Positions 4,113-38,935 of a stretch of DNA of 51,466 nt are shown here, piece after piece. Numbering within the stretch: the first letter of the stretch is position 1; each line of letters opens with the position of its first letter. The position numbers and the translations under genes are program-made. Location: positions 1 to 51,466 of IMG/VR virus record IMGVR_UViG_3300033998_000199; one strand, given 5' to 3'. The notes under the pieces are model-generated. The model was not told the DNA's origin and made no database searches. It saw only the letters and a list, made by a program, of their open reading frames with translations. This DNA is from a virus.

Positions 4113-5798
4113 GTGGCGTATACTCAACCCTTAAGGCAAACCTTAGAAAAGCAGGGATACCAGGTATATTTCCAAGGTGCAGGCAAGCCTATTAAAGTCA
4201 GCAAGGGTGGACAGACTTACGAAATTAAAGACTACCAAATCAAAGGCGGTACGGCGTATGTAGACCCTAGCACCCTGTCGAAGTTGACCACCACTACTAC
4301 GACTTCATCCGCACCGAAAGTAGCCGCACCTTCGGCAGGGGATGTTCCCGTCCGCTCCTCTTTGGAGCAGGCCGGTCTGAAAGTCTCCTACAACCCTTCC
4401 AATAAAAGCGTGACGGTAACGCACCCGGTTACGGGTTATTCGTACACATGGACACCGACTAAAGGTGTCGAGGGGAAATATTACGCTTCTCCTGAAGAAA
4501 TCGAGCGCGTAAAAGGGTACGTTACTCCTTCCTATGAAAAGGTGCCGCAGCAGGTAATGGCAGACTTGGCTGCGTACCAGAAACAAATGACCGATATGTG
4601 GAACCAGTATTACAACAACCAGCAGCAGTTGATTTCCGGCTATATGAAGCAAATGACGGACTACATCAAGCAATGGCAAGAAGCCGGTCTGGACATGATG
4701 CGGCAGTACCAACAGCAATATAGTGTGGTACTCGAGCAGCTTCAGAAGTTGATGAACCCAGACCCAACGGTGCCGGAAAGCGTAAAGTTGGCCCTCGACT
4801 TGGTGAAGAAACAAACGGATGAAAATATCCGTGTTCTCAACGAGGAAATGATCCGCCGAGGCATTTACGGCTCGACCATCGCTGCTGACCGCATACGCAA
4901 GCTCCAGGAAACCATGACGGACGAGCAACGTGCCATCCTAGCCCAGTGGCTTGACAACCAGCATAAGCAGATGCTCCAAGCGACATTGCAATACGCCGCC
5001 GCTCAGGAGCGGTACGCTCAGGGGCTGGCGAATATGTACGGCCAGGTCTATCAGAGGCCCATCGAGATGAGCATGAACCTTTTGCAGGGCGTTACTTCCA
5101 TGCAACAAGGCTTGGCACAGCAAGGGCTGCAATTGCAGAAAGACCTTGCCACACAAGGGCTTAATGTTTCGACACAACTTCGCCAGTGGGCTGGTCAGCA
5201 GGAAGATGCAGCACGGCAAGCCCGCCTCCAGCAAGAGCTAGAGGCACAGAAGGCAGCGCAGGAGCAAGCACGGTGGGAAGCTGAACAAGCACTTAAGCAA
5301 GCTCAGTTCCAGTTGGATGTGGCTAAAGCGCAAGAGGAAGCTAGGCACAACCGGGCTATGGAGAGCCGCCCAACGGGCAGTTCTTACCCCTCAGTGAGTT
5401 TGCTTAAGTATTGGCAAGACTTGCAGGACAAGGCAGCACAAGAAAAGATGGCAAGCGAAATACGCTCCTTGGCTCAGAATCTGGGCGTCAACGAGCCTAC
5501 TGCCGCCGCAATTTTGGACTTGGATCGTGGTGGTTGGTTAAAGAATCCTAACGCCGCTCTTGCTCAAGTAGAGTACATGAAAAACAATCCAAACTATGCC
5601 GGAGCCGATTGGGGTTACGTTAGTTCCTACGTAAAGACGAAGACTGCTCCAAAGTCCAGCACAACGTCATCTTCTGGTTGGAAACCAGGAACACCAATCG
5701 ACATTGAGTCTGTGCTAAAGTCCCTATTCAAAGGTAAGCCTACTCAACCCGTACAAGCACCAGCCATTTTGAAGGGCGTAGGTGCTGGCATATTCTAA
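4113..5798 (+). CDS. Coiled-coil virion protein with N-terminal twin repeats; probable ejection protein
   Basis: The start is GTG at 4113, 8 nt after AGGAGG; GTG 4104 and TTG 4107 overlap that site. The 561-residue product begins with two roughly 65-residue repeats (LRQTLEKQGYQVYF... and VRSSLEQAGLKVSYN...), each with a GG-Y/V turn, resembling copper-amine-oxidase-N-like surface domains. A long Gln/Ala/Met-rich helical region follows (about 150-430; for example QQGLAQQGLQLQKDLATQGL), then a Ser/Thr-rich C-terminus. Long coiled coils directly upstream of a giant virion protein are typical of the internal proteins of short-tailed phages that are ejected with DNA. The role is inferred from composition and position. 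Confidence 0.6.
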   Translation: MAYTQPLRQTLEKQGYQVYFQGAGKPIKVSKGGQTYEIKDYQIKGGTAYVDPSTLSKLTTTTTTSSAPKVAAPSAGDVPVRSSLEQAGLKVSYNPSNKSVTVTHPVTGYSYTWTPTKGVEGKYYASPEEIERVKGYVTPSYEKVPQQVMADLAAYQKQMTDMWNQYYNNQQQLISGYMKQMTDYIKQWQEAGLDMMRQYQQQYSVVLEQLQKLMNPDPTVPESVKLALDLVKKQTDENIRVLNEEMIRRGIYGSTIAADRIRKLQETMTDEQRAILAQWLDNQHKQMLQATLQYAAAQERYAQGLANMYGQVYQRPIEMSMNLLQGVTSMQQGLAQQGLQLQKDLATQGLNVSTQLRQWAGQQEDAARQARLQQELEAQKAAQEQARWEAEQALKQAQFQLDVAKAQEEARHNRAMESRPTGSSYPSVSLLKYWQDLQDKAAQEKMASEIRSLAQNLGVNEPTAAAILDLDRGGWLKNPNAALAQVEYMKNNPNYAGADWGYVSSYVKTKTAPKSSTTSSSGWKPGTPIDIESVLKSLFKGKPTQPVQAPAILKGVGAGIF

Positions 5799-5815: not shown

Positions 5816-8800
5816 ATGGCTGTTTCCTATGGCGAAGTTCTATCTAAAATGAGGGCAAGTTCTCGCATTTCATACGGTGATGTCCTAGCTGGAGTTAGAG
5901 CAAGTTCTCGTGCTAGTGACCCTTACAAAGCCGCCCAAACTGAAATTCAGCACAACATCGCCCGCCTCCAAGCTGTCGGTGCAAAGCCGCCCTCGCTTGG
6001 CAGCAAGATACTGTCGCTTCCTGCGGCGGTGTTTGACATTCTAGACCGTCCGGCGGCAGCCGTCCGTGCTGCGGTGAAGGCGGCCTTCACCCCGGAGAAG
6101 GAGTCAATCCTTGGTGAGGCATGGAAAGCGTTCACCGGAAAGACCAAAGTAAGTGGTGAGGACGTGCTCAAAGCCGCCGGGATCGCCCCGCAGAACAAGG
6201 TGGCCCGGTGGCTTGCTTCTTTCGGCACGGAAGTACTCCTCGACCCCAGCGTTTACATCACTCTTGGCGCTAGTAGCCTAGCCAAGAAGGTCGGGCAGGA
6301 GTCTGCTGAAGCGTTGGCCAAGCGGATTGTCCCCGAGATAGCCAAGGAGACCGGAAAGAACATTTCCCTGGAAAGCGCCACTCGCTTGGCGTCCAATGCT
6401 CTTAGAGGAGAAATTCCTGTAGGGCGTTTGGGCGACGCTATCCGGCGGGCGATGGGCTATCAGGTAGAAAAAGTAGCCGTTCCTGCTGGCCCGCGTTCCT
6501 TGGAGAAAACCATCGCGGCACGAGAAGCCGAAAGCCTTTTAAGCAAATCATACAGGAATGTCAGGCAGATCATCAACGCTTTACAAAAAGGTATTGAAAG
6601 GGGCAAGTTGCCTGAGAGTGCTAAAGGTATGCTACAGCGGTTAACTGCCTCAGAGGTCACTAGAGAAGTGGGCAGGGTTATTGGTGAGAGACCACGCTAC
6701 GCCATTGAGTTTGGTTCTTTCATGGGTTTCACCAAACCGATAGCTTCGGTGGACATTACTAAGACCGTTACTGGCCTTCGTAACTTGGCTGAGAAAACCC
6801 TCGGACAGCGAGGAGCCAAGGTCTTCGACTGGTTTGGCAGGGCCTTCGTTCGTGATTACACACCGCTGGCTTTCAAGGGCGGCGAGAGAGCGTTTATCCA
6901 AGAAGCTAAGAAGACCATATCCGAGGCCGAAGTTATGGCTCCCAGCAAGGCTAAAGTCACCTTGCAGAACGTTTTGGAAAAGGTTTGGAAGCAGGCCGGA
7001 ATACCACAAGAGGCTAGAGAGAAAGCTGTTTATGCTCTTGAAGAAGGCCGGAGCAAAGAGGCCAGGCTTGTTAGAGTCGTGCAGAACAAGATCAATAAGA
7101 CGATGCAAAAGCTCGCTGACATGGCCCAGATGGATGTTATACCGGAGAAAGAGTTTAACGCTGCTTGGAAGAGTTTGGAGAAACTGCGCAACCAGTTAAC
7201 CGAAGCGCAAAATGCCCTTATTGCCAGGCGTATAAGGCTCTTTGGCTCTCCTGAAATTCCCAAGGACGTGCAAAAGGCCGCCGACATAACCCGGAAGCTT
7301 TTTGCCGACGACCTCGAACGACTTGTTCAGCGCGGCGTTCCTATTAAGGCGATTGACTTCTACGTTATGCACCTATACAAAGACCCGCCGGAGAAAGTAC
7401 GCGAGGTCTTGCAGAAATACGCCGCCTCCAGAGGTATAAAAGCAGCGCATCCGTCATTTATGTACGAACGGCTCATCCGCGACGTTGAAACCGCCGAACG
7501 GCTTGGCTTGCACCCGGTCAAGGACGTTGCTGTACTCACTGCTATTCATCAAGCCTTAACTGACCAGATGCTGACCATCGACAAGATGGGGCGCGACTTG
7601 CTTCGTATCGGAAAAGACATTATCCGCCCAGCACGAATGGCTCCTCCTGGCTGGCACGTCATCACGGACAAAACCATCCCTGTCCTGCAAAATATGGCCG
7701 TGCATCCTGAAGTGGCGGAGTCTTTGAAACGTCTCTACACCATTGTACAAAACCCGGATGAGGCGTCCAAAGTCTTTGAGAGTGTATATCAGAAAGCAAT
7801 GAGGCACCTGAAGGCGCTCATGACTTCTTGGAACATCCGCTTCCACGTTGTTAACGCTACTGGCGGTGCGTTCTTCAACTTTGTGGATGGCGTGCCACCA
7901 ACAGCGTACGCCAAAGCAGCAAAGGCCCTCCAAGATCCCGCGAAGGAAATTCTGATCAACGGCAAGCGTGTTCCTGCCAAGGAGATTTTAGACGTATTCG
8001 ACCGCTTCGGCCTCCCTGGGCAGGGTGCTTTCCGTCAAGCGCAAACTGCGCGGTCTTTGCTACAAGAAGCTACTTCCGCAGCCAATCGGCTTGGATTGTC
8101 CACGGAGGGCGCTCCTACTCTTTGGCAACGTCTTACGGCTATTCCGAGAGAAGCTGGTGAGGTCACTGACACGTTCATGCGGCTCGCCAACTTTATCGAC
8201 CAGTTGGACAAGGGAAAGACTCCTGCTGAAGCTGCTGCACACACCAAGGCAGTGCATTACGACTATGGAGCACTTACGCCGTTCGAGAGAAGTGGTTGGT
8301 TGTCGGGTGGCCTTGTGCCGTTCTACGCTTGGTTGCGGTTCAACACTCCCGCAATGCTCAAGCTCATGGCAACTCGACCCGGCATCTTTATGGCGACCCA
8401 GCACGCCGTTGAGTCCGGCAAGGCCGTACACGGCATGAAGGACGAAGAAATTCCCGATTGGCTGAAGGACGCTATGGCCCTGCCAATCGGGGTAGACGAA
8501 AACGGCAATTACATCTTCTTCAATCCGGCCCTACCAATTTCTGACTTGTCGCGGATACGCAGTCCCCTCGACCGTAGTTTCTGGCAAGATTTAGCAGGAA
8601 CGCTCAACCCTGTACTGGCGATTCCGTACGAATTGGCTACAGGCAAAGAAGCTTATACAGGTAGAGATGTTAGCAAATATCCTGATCTGCCTATGCAGTA
8701 CTTGAAGGACGCCTTGACATCAGCCCTAATGAAGCTCGGCCCGGTCAGGGAAGTTGCTGCTGCACGTCGCTATGCAACTACCGACACCAGCAAACTTTCG

Positions 8801-14769: not shown

Positions 14770-14803
14770 GCCCTTGGGAATCGTCCCAAGGGCTTTTATT
14801 TTT
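14770..14803 (+). terminator. Strong intrinsic terminator ending the late operon
   Basis: GCCCTTGGGA (14770-14779) pairs perfectly with TCCCAAGGGC (14784-14793) over an ATCG loop, followed by TTTTATTTTT. It stops plus-strand late transcription just before the convergent polymerase gene. Confidence 0.92.
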
Positions 14804-17123
14804 AGGCCGCATTGGAAGCAATGATTTCCTCCAACGGCTTCAGTTCTCCCCAAGAAGGGCCGATTTTCACCTCTGCCGCAAACGGTACACTACCGTCCAG
14901 CACAGGTGCCGACATGATACCCTCCAACCAGCGAGCGACCTCTATAGGATCTTCCTTTGTTTCCAAGAGGATAGAGTCATGCACGGTAAGCAGGAGGCGC
15001 GTATTTGGGTTGTTTTCCAGGGCTTTTCCGGCGCGGATCAGTGCACTTAAAGTTACGTCGCTGGCCAAACTCTGGATCGGAGCATTAACAGCCTGGCGCA
15101 ACACTTCATTGCGGTTTTCGTCACTGATATAACCGAACCTGCGCGTGCGACCAAACGGTGTTGAGACTTTTCCCGTTCGGAGCACTTCGCGCTTGGTTTC
15201 TTCAATCCATTCCCTGGCCTGCGGGAAGGCGGCAAAATACGCTTCGATTAGTTCAGCCGCTTCAGCTTCCGTGATTTCCAGTTCTTGCGCCAAAGCGTTA
15301 GCAGACATCTGATATATAACCCCAAAGGTCAAACGCTTCGCCTTTTGTCGCATCTCCTTCGTTACTTCTTCCGGCTTTACCTTAAACATCAGGCAGGCCG
15401 TCCGCACGTGCATATCGCCACCAGCTAGAATTGCGTCGATTAGGTTTTTGTCCTTGGAATAGTACGCCAGACCGCGCACCTCAGCCTGGGACAAGTCGCC
15501 TTCTACCAAGGTGTAGCCTGGAGTAGCAATGAAGATGCGGCGGATGTCGCTTTCGCGAGGGATATTTTGCAAGTTGACCGGATCACTGCTGGAAAGACGG
15601 CCCGTAACAGTCCCATGTAGATTAAACGTCGTGTGTACCCGCCCATTTTCGTCAATCGCCTCTAGGAGGGCTTTGATGTAGGTAGAGTGTATCTTCTTCT
15701 TGGCCCGGTAGTCGAGCAGGAATCCCACCACGGGGTGGTACTCGCGGATGGCTTCCAAGGCGTCGCTGTCTGTGGAAAGCCTGCCCGGGACAGGCAGGTT
15801 CAGTTCGCGGTACAGCACGTCTAGAAGCTGCTTGTAGGAGTTTGGGTTAAACGGGTGCCCGACAGCCTCCTGTAGCTTCTTGAGCAAGTCGTCGATTGCA
15901 GCTGCGTATTCGGAATCCATGCGGGTGAGCAAAGCCTTGTCCACCAGCACTCCCAGAGACTCCATGCGGGCCAACACGTCACTCGCCGGGTAAAGGAGGT
16001 TGTTTAGCACGGCGTGGTTCTCTGGAGTGAGCATCCCTTGAAAGAGGCGGTGCAGCTGGTACGTGTAGCTTGCGTCTTTGGCATTGTATTTGTATAAGAT
16101 GTCCTTTGGGCAGTTTTCAAAGCCCTTCTTGTGGAAGGGTTTCAGTTCGGCGTCGTATTCCGGCATGTTGAGGTAGTCCTTGGCTAGCTGCTTTAGGCCG
16201 TGAGTGCCGGGGGTTTCGTCCATGACATAGTGTTCCAGCATGGTATCCGCACCCGTGCGGGCGGCGGTCAGGCCGTTGCGCCATAGCACCTGAAGGTCGT
16301 ACTTCAGGTTATGGCCGATGATCTTGATATTTCCCAAGACTTTGTTCAGGGCCTCGCGGGCGTCTGCCCTTTCGAGGGCTTCCTTAGTCACCACGACTGC
16401 CGTCCCCGGCTTCCAGGAAAAGCCAATGCAGAGGAGTTCTCCTGTGCTGGCTACTTCAACGTCCAGGGCTACTTCGGGCAACTGGCGCAGGCGTTCTACA
16501 AGTTCAAACACGCCGTCGGCGTCCTGAAGGACAACGGTCTGGACATCACCGCTTTCCTGTCGGACCGGCTCTAGCTTGCCTTGAAGTAATAAAGCAACTT
16601 TTTCTAGGTCGGTTTTCAGTTCTTGGTAAAGCCTCGGTGAGCGCAAAACTGCGGCCGGGTGGTAAGCCGGGACGACTACAGCGCCAAGCTCTTCCGACCA
16701 CACAGGAGCGCCGTGCCAGTCCTTGATCCCGCTCCGGCCAATCAGGGCTTTCATAGCCACATTACCAAGGGCAACGATCACCTTGGGCTTGCGCGAAAGA
16801 ATCTCCTGCTTGAGCCTCGGCAGGCAAGATGCTATTTCCTTTGGCTTTGGCGTCCTGATGGGTTCGGGAGCGCAGGAGCAAGTGTTGGTGAGGTAGCAGT
16901 TGTCCCGTTCAATGCCGACTTCTTTTAGCACTGTGTTCAGAAGTTGCCCGGCCCGGCCTACAAAAGGCATACCCTTCCTGGCCTCTGTAGGCCCTGGAGC
17001 TTCCCCAACCAGCACGATGTCGGCCTGCTCCGGCCCGAAACCTTCCACGTAAACAAAATCACGAAGGGAGCACTTGTTACAAAGTGCCCCCGGCGGATTT
17101 GCGTCCTTTCCCCTCAGCAGCAC
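14802..17123 (-). CDS. Uracil-DNA glycosylase / family A DNA polymerase fusion
   Basis: Residues about 1-185 are a family-4-type UDG: GEAPGPTEARKGMPFVGRAG, AYHPAAVLRSP, and four iron-sulfur Cys (CNKC; TCSC...EIASC). Then comes a 3'-5' exonuclease (DVEVAS, HNLKYDLQVL, YNAKDASYTY) with its acidic residues intact. The family A polymerase follows: motif A DLSQAEVR, motif B RQKAKRLTFGVIYQM, motif C VHDSILLE. Phe in motif B predicts discrimination against dideoxynucleotides. This is the replicative polymerase, with a uracil-sensing or -excising module attached. I prefer GTG 17123, with AAGAGG 8 nt upstream, over GTG 17132, which overlaps that site. It overlaps the RuvC-like gene by about 47 bp. Confidence 0.93.
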   Translation of the reverse strand: MLLRGKDANPPGALCNKCSLRDFVYVEGFGPEQADIVLVGEAPGPTEARKGMPFVGRAGQLLNTVLKEVGIERDNCYLTNTCSCAPEPIRTPKPKEIASCLPRLKQEILSRKPKVIVALGNVAMKALIGRSGIKDWHGAPVWSEELGAVVVPAYHPAAVLRSPRLYQELKTDLEKVALLLQGKLEPVRQESGDVQTVVLQDADGVFELVERLRQLPEVALDVEVASTGELLCIGFSWKPGTAVVVTKEALERADAREALNKVLGNIKIIGHNLKYDLQVLWRNGLTAARTGADTMLEHYVMDETPGTHGLKQLAKDYLNMPEYDAELKPFHKKGFENCPKDILYKYNAKDASYTYQLHRLFQGMLTPENHAVLNNLLYPASDVLARMESLGVLVDKALLTRMDSEYAAAIDDLLKKLQEAVGHPFNPNSYKQLLDVLYRELNLPVPGRLSTDSDALEAIREYHPVVGFLLDYRAKKKIHSTYIKALLEAIDENGRVHTTFNLHGTVTGRLSSSDPVNLQNIPRESDIRRIFIATPGYTLVEGDLSQAEVRGLAYYSKDKNLIDAILAGGDMHVRTACLMFKVKPEEVTKEMRQKAKRLTFGVIYQMSANALAQELEITEAEAAELIEAYFAAFPQAREWIEETKREVLRTGKVSTPFGRTRRFGYISDENRNEVLRQAVNAPIQSLASDVTLSALIRAGKALENNPNTRLLLTVHDSILLETKEDPIEVARWLEGIMSAPVLDGSVPFAAEVKIGPSWGELKPLEEIIASNAA

Positions 17124-17568
17124 CGAACACACCTCTTTCTCTCAGCGTCCTGGCATATTCGTGCGGGTGTTCTTTCATGTAGTACCAGATAGCGTGTCTG
17201 GCTGCATCCCGCGCGTGCGGACTGCCTACGGTACGGCACCACCCATCAAATGCCCTTAAGACGGAATTTCCCACCTGCTTCTTTATCGACGCTGGCTGCT
17301 CCACTATCGGGACGTTCTTATCGGCAGCCCACACCTTGAACATCCCGATGACCTGCGGTGCCGGAAGGCTATCCCAGGACAGGCTATTCGCCTTCCACGG
17401 ATATACGCGGAAGGATTCCATGATGATTACACTCGGAACAACGTCCAAAGCCTTTAGGTACCCAGGCACTTCGTCCATAGGCACCTGCAACGCATGACAG
17501 ACCTTCTTTTGCTTATCATCAAAAAGCACAATTCCGGTGACTTTGCCGGGGTCAACTGCCAGGAACAT
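17077..17568 (-). CDS. RuvC/RNase H-fold Holliday-junction-resolvase-like nuclease
   Basis: This 163-residue protein begins MFLAVDPGKVTGIVLF, the first catalytic-Asp strand of RuvC. It continues with IIMESFRVYP (Glu) and the C-terminal SPHARDAARHAIWYYMK (paired acidic residue), giving the D-E-D pattern. The start ATG 17568 fits the family N-terminus and overlaps the upstream small gene; longer in-frame starts up to 17595 lack ribosome sites. It should cut branched DNA, resolving recombination or packaging intermediates. It lies directly upstream of, and overlapping, the polymerase gene. Confidence 0.8.
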   Translation of the reverse strand: MFLAVDPGKVTGIVLFDDKQKKVCHALQVPMDEVPGYLKALDVVPSVIIMESFRVYPWKANSLSWDSLPAPQVIGMFKVWAADKNVPIVEQPASIKKQVGNSVLRAFDGWCRTVGSPHARDAARHAIWYYMKEHPHEYARTLRERGVFGAAEGKGRKSAGGTL

Positions 17569-24086: not shown

Positions 24087-24911
24087 ATGGTAGGAGCTTC
24101 GCGTGAAGCTAGAGAAACGTTGGCTAGGACATTACGGAACTTGCGGACGGGACACAACGTAACCAGAAGGGAACTAGCACGAGCAATCGGAGTGGCGGAA
24201 AACACAATCTACCTCTACGAGACCATGAAGCGATACCCTGAACCGCACATCTTGGAGAAACTTGCTGCATACTTTGGAGTACCTATCTCAGAACTAACCA
24301 GACCAGAAGTTCCGACAGGGGAACTGCGTTCCGATCTCGAGGAAGTTAAAAAACAACTGACTGACTTACAAAAGCGGGTAGTCGAGAGTACTATACCGCG
24401 TGAAGAAGATTTGAAAGAAATGCAACGTTTGGCAAGGCGTGCCGCCTATTTAGAAAGCACCCTCAAGGAAATCACGAACTCCTTTTTGCCTACAAAGTTA
24501 GTTCCAATCCTAAGCAAAGTCCCTGCTGGGCTGCCCATCTACGTCGGCGATCCAGACGTAGAAGACTGGCAACCAGTCCTAAAAGACAGTGATGTCGACT
24601 ATGGGTTAGTCGTAATCGGAGACAGCCTCACCGATGTGGACATCCACGCTGGAGACATCATCCTTGTCCACAAAACCCCCACAGCTAGCGTAGGGGACTT
24701 GGTGGTCTTCCGCGTGGGTGATGGGTACACGGTTAAGTACCTCGCCCAGAAGGACGGCAAATATGTTCTCCGCGCAGCCAATCCGAATTACCAGGACATA
24801 GTAGTCGACAACGAAGAGTTCGCAATAGAAGGCGTTGTTCGCAATATCCTCAAAGCAGTGCCACGTATGCCGCGCGGTGATAGCAATGGCACGAACGAAG
24901 AAACGTGCTAA
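24087..24911 (+). CDS. cI/LexA-like repressor (HTH + S24 peptidase)
   Basis: This 274-residue protein has an XRE HTH (10-70: LARTLRNLRTGHNVTRRELARAIGVAENTI), a Lys/Glu-rich helical linker (75-125), and an S24 self-cleavage domain. SKVPAGLPIYVGD contains the Ala-Gly cleavage site; Ser lies in IGDSLTDVDIHAGD and Lys in GYTVKYL. AGGAGG precedes the ATG. It should hold the lysogenic state by repressing the leftward early promoter and be inactivated by RecA-stimulated autocleavage on DNA damage, so the phage is predicted to be SOS-inducible. Confidence 0.88.
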   Translation: MVGASREARETLARTLRNLRTGHNVTRRELARAIGVAENTIYLYETMKRYPEPHILEKLAAYFGVPISELTRPEVPTGELRSDLEEVKKQLTDLQKRVVESTIPREEDLKEMQRLARRAAYLESTLKEITNSFLPTKLVPILSKVPAGLPIYVGDPDVEDWQPVLKDSDVDYGLVVIGDSLTDVDIHAGDIILVHKTPTASVGDLVVFRVGDGYTVKYLAQKDGKYVLRAANPNYQDIVVDNEEFAIEGVVRNILKAVPRMPRGDSNGTNEETC

Positions 24912-26067
24912 CGGCGAAGGCACAGTCTACCAGCGTGCCGACGGCCTGTGGGTCGCCCAAATGGTAGTCCGATCCACAGGCAAACGTCGGAGCTTCTACG
25001 GCAGGACGCAAAAGGATGTCCTACAAAAGCTCAAAGCTGCCCAAGCAGAAGAAACCAGCGGGACGTACATTGAGCCAAGTAAAATAACAGTCGCGGAGTG
25101 GTTAGACACTTGGCTAAAGACCTACAAGAAGCATGACCTCCGCCAGACAACTTGGGATTGTTACGAAATGCTCGTGCGGCGGTACATCGTCCCGGCTATT
25201 GGTAGCGTGCGCTTGCAACAATTGCAACCGCAAATGCTGCAACAGCTATACAACGACGTTTTGGCTAAAGGTAAGTCGAGACGCACGGCAGCTTTAATCC
25301 ACACGGTCATACACGCTGCTTTGGATCAAGCAGTACAAAACCAGGTAGTACAACGCAATGCTGCCGAAGCTGCCCACCCACCCCGCCAGGAAAAGCAGGA
25401 GAGGCGCTGCCTATCATCGGAAGAAACGATGCGGCTTATCGAAGCCGCCAAAGGCGAACGCCTCTACGCTGCTATAGTCCTAGCCCTAAGTACGGGCCTG
25501 CGGCGTGGTGAACTTCTCGCGCTGAAATGGGAAGACGTTGATTTTGAGAACAAGCTTCTATATGTCCGGCGCAACCTGGTGACTATACGCAACCAGGAAG
25601 GTCGGACAAAAACAAGGAACGTGGAGCAATCGCCTAAGACGAAAACAAGCAACCGCATTTTGCCGTTGTCCGATGAGCTCATAGACCTGCTTAAAGAACA
25701 CCAACGAAAACAGGAAGAGGACAAAACCACTTTTGGCGAGGGCTACCAGGACAACGGCTTCGTGTTTTGTACTACCAAGGGAACGCCGATAAGCCCACGT
25801 AATTTCTCCCGGTTCGTTGCGCGGATAGCAGAAAAGGCGGGCCTCAAAGGTGTCAGCCCGCACACGCTGAGACACACCTTCGCGACCCGCCTAGCTGAAT
25901 TAGGCGTGTACCCAACAGTTGTCCAGAAGTTGTTGGGCCACGCTACAGTGGATGTCTCGATGGAAGTCTACTCCCACGTCTTCCCGGACGTGGAACGTGA
26001 TGCAATCGAAAACCTGTCGTTGCATTACGGTTGCATTACTGGGCATAAGGAAAGCCCTCCAGAATGA
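24886..26067 (+). CDS. int: Tyrosine recombinase integrase
   Basis: This 393-residue enzyme overlaps the repressor gene by 26 bp. The N-terminal 55 residues (ANGEGTVYQRADGLWVAQ) form the arm-binding AP2-like domain and about 65-150 the core-binding SAM-like domain. The catalytic set is Arg in STGLRRGEL, His-x-x-Arg in HTLRHTFATRLAE, His in LLGHATVDVS and Tyr in EVYSHV. It recombines attP (26088-26133) with a host tRNA-Thr gene. The stop codon lies in the loop of a hairpin (26052-26079). Confidence 0.93.
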   Translation: MARTKKRANGEGTVYQRADGLWVAQMVVRSTGKRRSFYGRTQKDVLQKLKAAQAEETSGTYIEPSKITVAEWLDTWLKTYKKHDLRQTTWDCYEMLVRRYIVPAIGSVRLQQLQPQMLQQLYNDVLAKGKSRRTAALIHTVIHAALDQAVQNQVVQRNAAEAAHPPRQEKQERRCLSSEETMRLIEAAKGERLYAAIVLALSTGLRRGELLALKWEDVDFENKLLYVRRNLVTIRNQEGRTKTRNVEQSPKTKTSNRILPLSDELIDLLKEHQRKQEEDKTTFGEGYQDNGFVFCTTKGTPISPRNFSRFVARIAEKAGLKGVSPHTLRHTFATRLAELGVYPTVVQKLLGHATVDVSMEVYSHVFPDVERDAIENLSLHYGCITGHKESPPE

Positions 26068-32435: not shown

Positions 32436-32441
32436 TATGTA
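32436..32441 (-). promoter_or_regulatory. Recurrent GTACATACC motif (site D)
   Basis: TACATA in the minus direction, 52 nt before ATG 32384, between the stop-codon hairpin at 32447 and the leader hairpin at 32410. Confidence 0.35.
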
Positions 32442-37652: not shown

Positions 37653-37687
37653 CTCTAACACCCCTCTTTGTTGGTCTCGCACTGCTT

Positions 37688-37717
37688 ATTATACTGCGGC
37701 GTTGTCCGGTGTGTCAA
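37688..37717 (-). promoter_or_regulatory. Perfect-consensus leftward promoter
   Basis: In the minus direction TTGACA, 18 bp, TATAAT. It drives the HTH protein and the primase-helicase down to the 34744 terminator. Confidence 0.85.
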
Positions 37718-37739
37718 TGCTGTTTTATGACGTTGTGTG

Positions 37740-37768
37740 TTGACTTTAGGTGTTAGATCAGTTATAAT
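37740..37768 (+). promoter_or_regulatory. Strong rightward promoter for the structured RNA
   Basis: TTGACT, 17 bp, TATAAT, the same boxes as the early promoter at 24038. Predicted start is near 37775. No open gene follows for over 800 bp, so the main product should be non-coding RNA, with possible read-through into the late genes from 38597. The 22 bp between this and the leftward promoter leave room for a shared regulator. Confidence 0.82.
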
Positions 37769-37902
37769 TGTCTCGGTGATACTCCCCACCGTCGCCCGGA
37801 CGGGCCGGTCAACGACGGTGGTGTGGAATGCTTGGGCTATGGGGGCTGTGGCGGCACACGTGCCGTAAGCCATGCGTGGCGACGACAGCATCCCATAGCA
37901 GC

Positions 37903-38022
37903 TATGGGGTGGCGGAATAGGTAGACGCGGTATGCTTGCGGCAGGATACGGTTTAAGACCGCAATAAAAGCGGGGCAACGTGAAAAAGCCTGCCATGCGA
38001 GGTGCAAATCCTCGCCCCCATA
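37903..38022 (+). tRNA. tRNA-Leu(UAA)-like domain with enlarged middle
   Basis: Acceptor TATGGGG pairs with CCCCATA. TGGCGGAATAGGTAGACGC is a standard tRNA-Leu D-arm region. CGG-TTTAAGA-CCG gives an anticodon loop with TAA, and GCGAGG-TGCAAAT-CCTCGC a T-arm. About 35 nt more than a normal tRNA-Leu lie between D- and T-arms; the extra parts pair with each other (ATGC, GGCAGG with CCTGCC, ATGC). No CCA is encoded. Two bases on each side extend the acceptor helix into the flanking RNA. It looks like a tRNA-derived domain inside the larger RNA rather than an ordinary tRNA. Confidence 0.4.
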
Positions 38023-38484
38023 GCGAACGGCCACGACCCCGGCGGTGGTGCGTCGATCCGAGCCAGCCTCGCCTGGCGAGACGAATAGCTGGCGAAAGAC
38101 GCCTGAGCGTGGCCCGGTACATACTTGCCCCGCTCGCAAGAGGAGACTGAAACGCCGAATGGCGCGTAGGTCGAAAGATGCACGGCGGGGTGGGTGTTGT
38201 CCTCCGCCCGCGAAAGCTGGCTCCATGCCATGATTGCCTAACGGCGACTAGCGGCGGACGGGCAGATACCTTACAGCAGCGGTTGGATGCCCATAGCGTC
38301 CGTTGGCCGCAAGGCCCCGCTGCTCCTCTCTGTACTGCTGAGGCTGTGGTGTGGTGAGGGCAGGTACACCCGTTGCGGTGATGGCCTGCGTGTAGGCAGT
38401 ACAAATGGGCGGTTAATCCGCAACGCTGACCGTTTTGGTTGGATAGGCCCTAGTGGGCTGAGGGTTCACCGCCCGTACATACTC

Positions 38485-38560
38485 GGTGGGCGTGATGTAA
38501 CGGTAGCACACTAGGGGGCATACCCCTGGTAGATGCGGGTTCAATTCCCGCCGCCTGCCA
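38485..38560 (+). tRNA. tRNA-like element, CAT in anticodon loop
   Basis: GGTGGGCG pairs with CGCCTGCC (8 bp, two G-U). TGATGTAACGGTAGCAC is a D-arm, GCGGG-TTCAATT-CCCGC a canonical T-arm, and TAGAT the variable region. The anticodon arm is 19 nt instead of 17: CTAGGGG/CCCCTGG leaves a 5-nt loop GCATA, or a 5-bp stem leaves nine. U33 is missing before CAT. CA follows the acceptor, not full CCA. It closes the structured RNA and ends 36 bp before the first late gene. It may be a processing signal or a degenerate tRNA-Met/Ile. Confidence 0.5.
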
Positions 38561-38596
38561 CAATACAAAAGGATTAGTTACTGGAGGTTTTGCACC

Positions 38597-38935
38597 TTGA
38601 CACCTAACGAATATCAGCAGCTAGCAGCACGAACTGCTCCAAAGGATTGCATGGCGGAGCGTCTTAAGAACTACGCCTTGGGGCTTGTTGGTGAAACCGG
38701 CGAGCTCGTTGACTTGCTTAAGAAGACACTTTACCACGACCACCCTGCTGATAAGGCCAAGATACGCGAGGAAGCAGGGGATGTGTTGTGGTACTTAGCG
38801 GGGATTCTACGTGAGTTTGACATTGATTTAGAAGGTACAATGGTGTTCAACATTGAGAAGCTGAAGAAGCGCTACCCGGACGGCTTCGATGCGGAGCGTA
38901 GCCGTAACCGCGAAGCCCTGGACGATGGGTGGTGA
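38597..38935 (+). CDS. MazG-like NTP pyrophosphohydrolase
   Basis: This 112-residue protein starts at TTG 38597, 9 nt after GGAGG. GLVGETGELVDLLKK and EEAGDVLWYLAGIL give the four acidic metal ligands (ExxE and ExxD) of the all-alpha MazG fold. Members hydrolyse non-canonical or regulatory nucleoside triphosphates such as dUTP or ppGpp-pool precursors. As the first gene of the late transcript it may adjust host nucleotide pools. The stop overlaps the next start as TGATG. Confidence 0.8.
   Translation: MTPNEYQQLAARTAPKDCMAERLKNYALGLVGETGELVDLLKKTLYHDHPADKAKIREEAGDVLWYLAGILREFDIDLEGTMVFNIEKLKKRYPDGFDAERSRNREALDDGW

Follow-up and report, generated by a model that had tools for sequence, protein, structure and literature searches.

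In the phage RNA family GOLLD, linkers sometimes contain tRNAs, and GOLLD env-38 is situated downstream of a Met-tRNA (PMC12286853). In phage ICP1, an ORF-less region next to the lysis cluster gives rise to an abundant non-coding transcript of ~800 nt (PMC7567579). With regard to RNA cleavage, EndoA of B. subtilis cuts U/ACAUA in vivo (PMC11780869), the MazF of Symbiobacterium prefers UACAUA (PMC10893535), and MazF acts in phage decisions (PMC10769878). None of the literature searched describes a phage that uses the MazF/EndoA hexamer to process its transcripts.

Here we describe a structured, gene-free leader of ~790 nt that follows the late promoter and precedes the MazG/terminase operon in a phage, probably of a Clostridia-like bacterium. 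The window is the whole stretch of DNA analyzed (51,466 nt; IMG/VR record IMGVR_UViG_3300033998_000199), and coordinates refer to it unless another contig is named. The phage looks temperate, based on an S24-type repressor (24087-24911) and an integrase (24835-26067). At 14802-17132 on the minus strand it also encodes a fusion of a uracil-DNA-glycosylase domain and a family A DNA polymerase that has a 3'-5' exonuclease.

Location, promoter and gene content

The early operon runs leftward and the late operon rightward from the leader RNA, which is bordered by the following features.

37740..37768, plus strand: late promoter, TTGACT-N17-TATAAT, predicted start ~37775
37688..37717, minus strand: divergent early promoter, TTGACA-N18-TATAAT, 12/12 positions, back to back with the late promoter
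38597..38935, plus strand: MazG-like gene, the first downstream of the leader; its protein is 87.5% identical in the G044 prophage (see below)

A reading of the sequence alone had proposed a strong promoter that drives about 790 nt without a gene, ahead of the late operon. Each of these points is borne out, since the late promoter matches 11/12 consensus positions, no Shine-Dalgarno-led gene was seen from 37776 up to mazG at 38597, and both terminase (40829) and portal (45134) lie downstream. Within 1.4 kb there are 2 promoter-like sites, compared with 0.4 in shuffles. A long antisense ORF (37655-38404) was rejected as a gene; the homologous stretch of G044 has no ORF >90 aa on the same strand.

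Search for known families and relatives

Rfam searches at the gathering threshold and at E<=10 returned tRNA-clan and chance matches only, and no large-RNA family. The RNA had been suggested to be GOLLD/ROOL-like or new. The covariance model of GOLLD (RF02032), also run singly, failed to match the window or G044 at E<=10, in a search without a positive control because no control genome passed the GOLLD cut-off; that of ROOL (RF03087), also run singly, likewise failed at E<=10, again with no positive control genome. Thus, a new class is the better of the two alternatives.

BLAST of phages and plasmids gave no match. Portal and terminase relatives were found in L045 and L048 (54-58% identity), and neither these (by blastn or nhmmer) nor L128 had a nucleotide match to the leader. 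In L045, an ORF resembling ThyX thymidylate synthase, read by eye, is located upstream of the terminase genes (4304-5005). In L128, at ~5888-7000, the terminase match is split (residues 17-173 and 173-582) by ~1.1 kb that looks like an intein. Of three IMG/VR pattern scans, two were without result and one produced two matches in coding-looking stretches.

A closely related terminase (76%) pointed to a Clostridia MAG, and when 299 relatives were searched, one clear homologue was obtained, the prophage of genome G044. As proposed earlier, a new model was built from homologues (R1, from the M7 sequences of the window and G044; modules are defined below), and it scores M7, its own training member, with 194 bits. 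Its reach is narrow: among 73 loci it found only its own two members, and among 398 phylum members only G044. Matches in L150 and L151 were judged to be chance, although L150 has an exact 26-nt hairpin in common with the leader. This hairpin, ACTGAAACGCCGAATGGCGCGTAGGT, is identical in M5 (38146-38171) and in a terminator-like hairpin of G219 (L150 4799-4824, minus strand).

The gene order of G044 is that of the window, i.e., an HTH gene (59% amino acid identity), the RNA blocks, mazG (87.5%), a gene for a 181-aa protein (72%), and terminase (77%). At the DNA level, RNA blocks M2, M4 and M7 are 83-90% identical between the two phages, while the neighboring genes are 75% (mazG), 71% (terminase) and 66% (181-aa gene) identical. 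Host tRNA-Thr, -Met and -Tyr genes are present near the left part of the G044 prophage (L161 7092-7344), a possible integration area.

Fold and modules of the leader

The minimum free energy of the 789 nt is -363 kcal/mol (z -3.3), and none of 20 shuffles was equally good. At least seven perfect 6-9-bp stems had been described; local perfect hairpins of at least 6 bp with loops of 3-12 number 2, compared with 2.1 in dinucleotide shuffles. Similarly, five GNRA hairpins had been described, and the count is 1 with at least 4 bp (0.7 in shuffles) and 4 with at least 3 bp (1.8 in shuffles, 16 of 200 of which reached 4). Short perfect hairpins and GNRA loops are thus not above chance and do not count as evidence; the relevant stems are longer-range or imperfect. 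The leader is divided into eight modules, all on the plus strand.

37784..37826, plus strand: M1, 5' hairpin of the MFE fold, not kept in G044
37836..37899, plus strand: M2, GCTATGGG...CCCATAGC hairpin domain, 90% identical in G044
37901..38024, plus strand: M3, tRNA-Leu-like, with expanded anticodon region and T-loop TGCAAAT
38030..38123, plus strand: M4, multi-branched, closed by GGCCACG/CGTGGCC and followed by GGUACAUA
38121..38198, plus strand: M5, TTGCCCCG...ATGCACGGCGGGG element, fold z -3.0
38200..38262, plus strand: M6, hairpins
38263..38481, plus strand: M7, ~211 nt, the largest conserved domain, 3' end CCGCCC-g-UACAUA, 83-84.5% identical in G044
38485..38561, plus strand: M8, tRNA-like 3' end with CAT in the loop

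The tRNA-like 3' end is confirmed by ARAGORN, which calls a tRNA-Met(CAT), and by RF00005, which under lax filters scores 36.2 bits in a 106-nt segment against a gathering cut-off of 29; at default settings the whole-window scan does not list it. As read from the sequence, this element has no decoding features, i.e., no U33 and no encoded CCA: its loop is GGCATAC, with a G at position 33 in the ARAGORN placement, and its 3' end is CCACAA. The internal tRNA-Leu-like domain is also confirmed. Its D-arm stretch (~37906-37928) is identical at 23/23 positions to stretches in several other genomes, which are probably tRNA-Leu genes, but the element at 37901-38024 has no RF00005 match at E<=1.

The 5' arm of M2 is predicted to pair alternatively with the 3' arm of M3. 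Furthermore, both phages retain CATCCCATAGC-N-GCTATGGGGTG (37889-37911 in the window, L149 ~8336-8363 in G044), a nearly self-complementary stretch that could link two molecules by pairing or exchange partners with M3. The M3 T-arm is complementary over 14 nt to the ribosome-binding site of mazG, a pairing that was discarded because by eye it is not kept in G044.

In G044 the M3 homologue (L149 ~8353-8452) has the T-loop TTCGAGT, an expanded tRNA-like element (L149 9328-9506) occupies the place of M6, and no M8-like element was seen after M7. M5-related elements are found at L149 8886-8942 and 9168-9325, and at L160 3246-3308 and 2951-3016 (minus strand).

Conservation of pairing and the organization of the RNA

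Compensatory changes had been named as a test of structure, and three were found in the consensus folds (one in M7, two in M4) between two sequences. These folds keep 68 pairs in M7 and 23 in M4 in both phages, consensus folding being biased toward kept pairs. A fairer test is to fold one sequence and permute the substitutions. The window fold has fewer broken pairs in G044 than in permuted sequences for M2+M3 (P=0.0105), M4 (P=0.0015) and M7 (P=0.0005). In the reverse direction, in which the G044 fold is imposed on the window, the result is not significant (P 0.16, 0.23 and 0.41), nor are both-sided changes alone, except marginally for M4 (0.04-0.05). These tests from two homologous loci are supportive; they favour structure but do not settle the matter. 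In sum, the sequence of the modules, which include two tRNA-like and several junction and hairpin domains, and largely their pairing, are conserved in one syntenic prophage.

A free-standing giant ornate RNA of GOLLD/ROOL type would be abundant, possibly oligomeric and expressed late. The leader's length of ~790 nt, phage origin and tRNA-like domains would fit such an RNA, as would its stronger conservation compared with coding DNA, and CATCCCATAGC-N-GCTATGGGGTG could favour dimers. On the other hand, in addition to the unmatched GOLLD and ROOL models, the conserved blocks of G044 are split by small ORFs and one extra block is inserted. As read from the sequence, a small ORF follows M4 and another M7, and small ORFs also stand on either side of the M5-like elements. 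Moreover, M5-related and tRNA-like elements are present singly in the early operon of the G044 prophage. This arrangement points to a string of modules rather than a single compact giant RNA, and we consider a giant RNA, with the small ORFs as later insertions, doubtful. Of the giant structured phage RNA first proposed, the structured non-coding RNA before the late genes therefore stands, but as a modular leader.

The leader is unlikely to regulate late-operon transcription in cis, whether by put-like antitermination or in another way. Its position directly between late promoter and late operon would suit this role, and a promoter with the matching motif is present in G044 (TTGACT-N17-TATAAT, ~L149 7130). 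Nevertheless, small ORFs follow that promoter and separate it from the modules, the early operon too contains related elements, and no terminator-like site was found from the late promoter to the mazG start.

Still less probable is a decayed phage tRNA array, in which former tRNA genes would have lost decoding and would have no independent role as RNA. The two tRNA-like domains, of which one has the 23-nt D-arm identity, and the G044 tRNA-like elements with T-loops TTCAAAT are in keeping with such an origin. However, M2, M4, M5 and M7, the last being the largest conserved block, are not recognisably tRNA-like, and conservation of RNA blocks above coding DNA is not expected from decay.

The UACAUA hexamer

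The last six nucleotides of two modules, M4 (38118-38123) and M7 (38476-38481), are UACAUA, placed at the base of the closing stem, and the same hexamer follows many other intergenic hairpins on the transcribed strand of both phages. Examples from the window are listed here, the further elements by their low coordinate.

32436..32441, minus strand: intergenic hairpin-UACAUA
33460, 33012, 32176, 30209, 28413, 19762 and 14762, minus strand: further hairpin-UACAUA elements

On the sense strand of each phage, no hexamer is more over-represented than UACAUA in the 0-6 nt that follow perfect hairpins (5 observed, 0.15 expected), a test that is not independent of discovery, as the pattern was first noticed in the same two phages. 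It is found 0 times after such hairpins on the antisense strands of either phage; the G044 chromosome, examined over 360 kb, has 0 such sites on the plus and 2 on the minus strand (0.36 expected each). In a third phage, L128, 4 further hairpin-GTACATA sites were seen by eye, 2 of which fall under the hairpin rule.

The transcribed strands of both phages carry 22 TACATA sites, or 24 when one G044 gene of uncertain orientation is included, not all of them independent given the relatedness of the two phages. In the 12 nt preceding each of the 22 sense sites, pairing is 0.77, compared with 0.59 at random positions (P 1e-6), and it also exceeds that before antisense sites (P 3e-5). A Shine-Dalgarno sequence and an ORF follow within 100 nt at 13 of the 22 sites (12.9% of random positions). 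Nearly all 22 appear to be intergenic. Automatic gene calls place 4 of them inside coding sequences, and two of these in the window, 33465 and 19767, precede a Shine-Dalgarno sequence and start codon, so that those starts were probably called too early. Inside genes the hexamer is found once in the window (4.8 expected; 31/1000 shuffles) and 3 times in G044 (5.2 expected; 206/1000 shuffles), counts that are approximate because gene starts were set by simple rules. This avoidance is weak, being nominal in the window and absent in G044, and the pentamer UACAU is not avoided in genes (27 observed, 30.5 expected).

That TACATA is a DNA or promoter element (e.g., a -10 box) and not an RNA cut site is as improbable as tRNA decay, because, in spite of its mostly intergenic position before start sites, no -35-like hexamer is present upstream (the best match averages 2.95/6, compared with 2.97 at random) and the sense-strand sequence before it is unusually paired.

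Proposed role in transcript processing

We tentatively favour, at somewhat below an even chance, a new lineage-specific modular leader and intercistronic RNA that would guide transcript processing, possibly by the host MazF. The modules would serve as processing and stability elements of a polycistronic transcript. The cut, within U^ACAUA directly behind a stable stem, would be made by an endoribonuclease, most likely MazF/EndoA of the host, and would leave a stem-protected 3' end and a new 5' end before the next cistron. In the leader this scheme would free RNAs of ~340 and ~360 nt. The tRNA-like domains may in turn be recognized by tRNA-processing enzymes (RNase P, RNase Z).

G044 encodes one MazF, an EndoA orthologue whose best PDB match is EndoA (4mdx; E value 1.5e-49). 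MazF is thought to require single-stranded RNA, and an antitoxin normally holds it. The UACAUA at 38118 is mostly paired in prediction (unpaired 0.25; +-100 nt), and that at 38476 is mostly unpaired (0.69). Processing at UACAUA, and by MazF in particular, is put forward as a hypothesis on circumstantial grounds.

The G044 modules are located between small genes, and each seems to carry a possible site at which a host RNA-cleaving toxin would cut. A bolder and rather unlikely extension of processing by MazF is that this phage lineage has placed the toxin's cut site behind protective structures between its genes, so that MazF would process the phage transcripts, the late leader being a chain of such elements that includes tRNA mimics.

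With the leader, the structured RNAs of phages gain one that belongs to no Rfam family, and its one homologue shows that a "giant RNA" can consist of separable modules in a chain. From the hairpin-UACAUA pattern arises the testable question whether phages exploit the sequence specificity of a host toxin on their own transcripts.

Comparison with known systems

The leader resembles GOLLD (RF02032) as a large structured phage RNA of ~800 nt associated with tRNAs, but it gives no match to the GOLLD model at E<=10 and is modular and interrupted by ORFs in G044. With ROOL (RF03087) it shares the character of a large structured phage RNA, but again no covariance-model match at E<=10. The ICP1 transcript is likewise a phage RNA of ~800 nt from ORF-less space, likened here by description and not by sequence, whereas ICP1 has no tRNAs. 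Finally, EndoA/MazF cleavage involves the same hexamer, and G044 has an EndoA orthologue; the known MazF is a toxin that acts on cellular mRNA, whereas here its hexamer would be a putative processing site of the phage.
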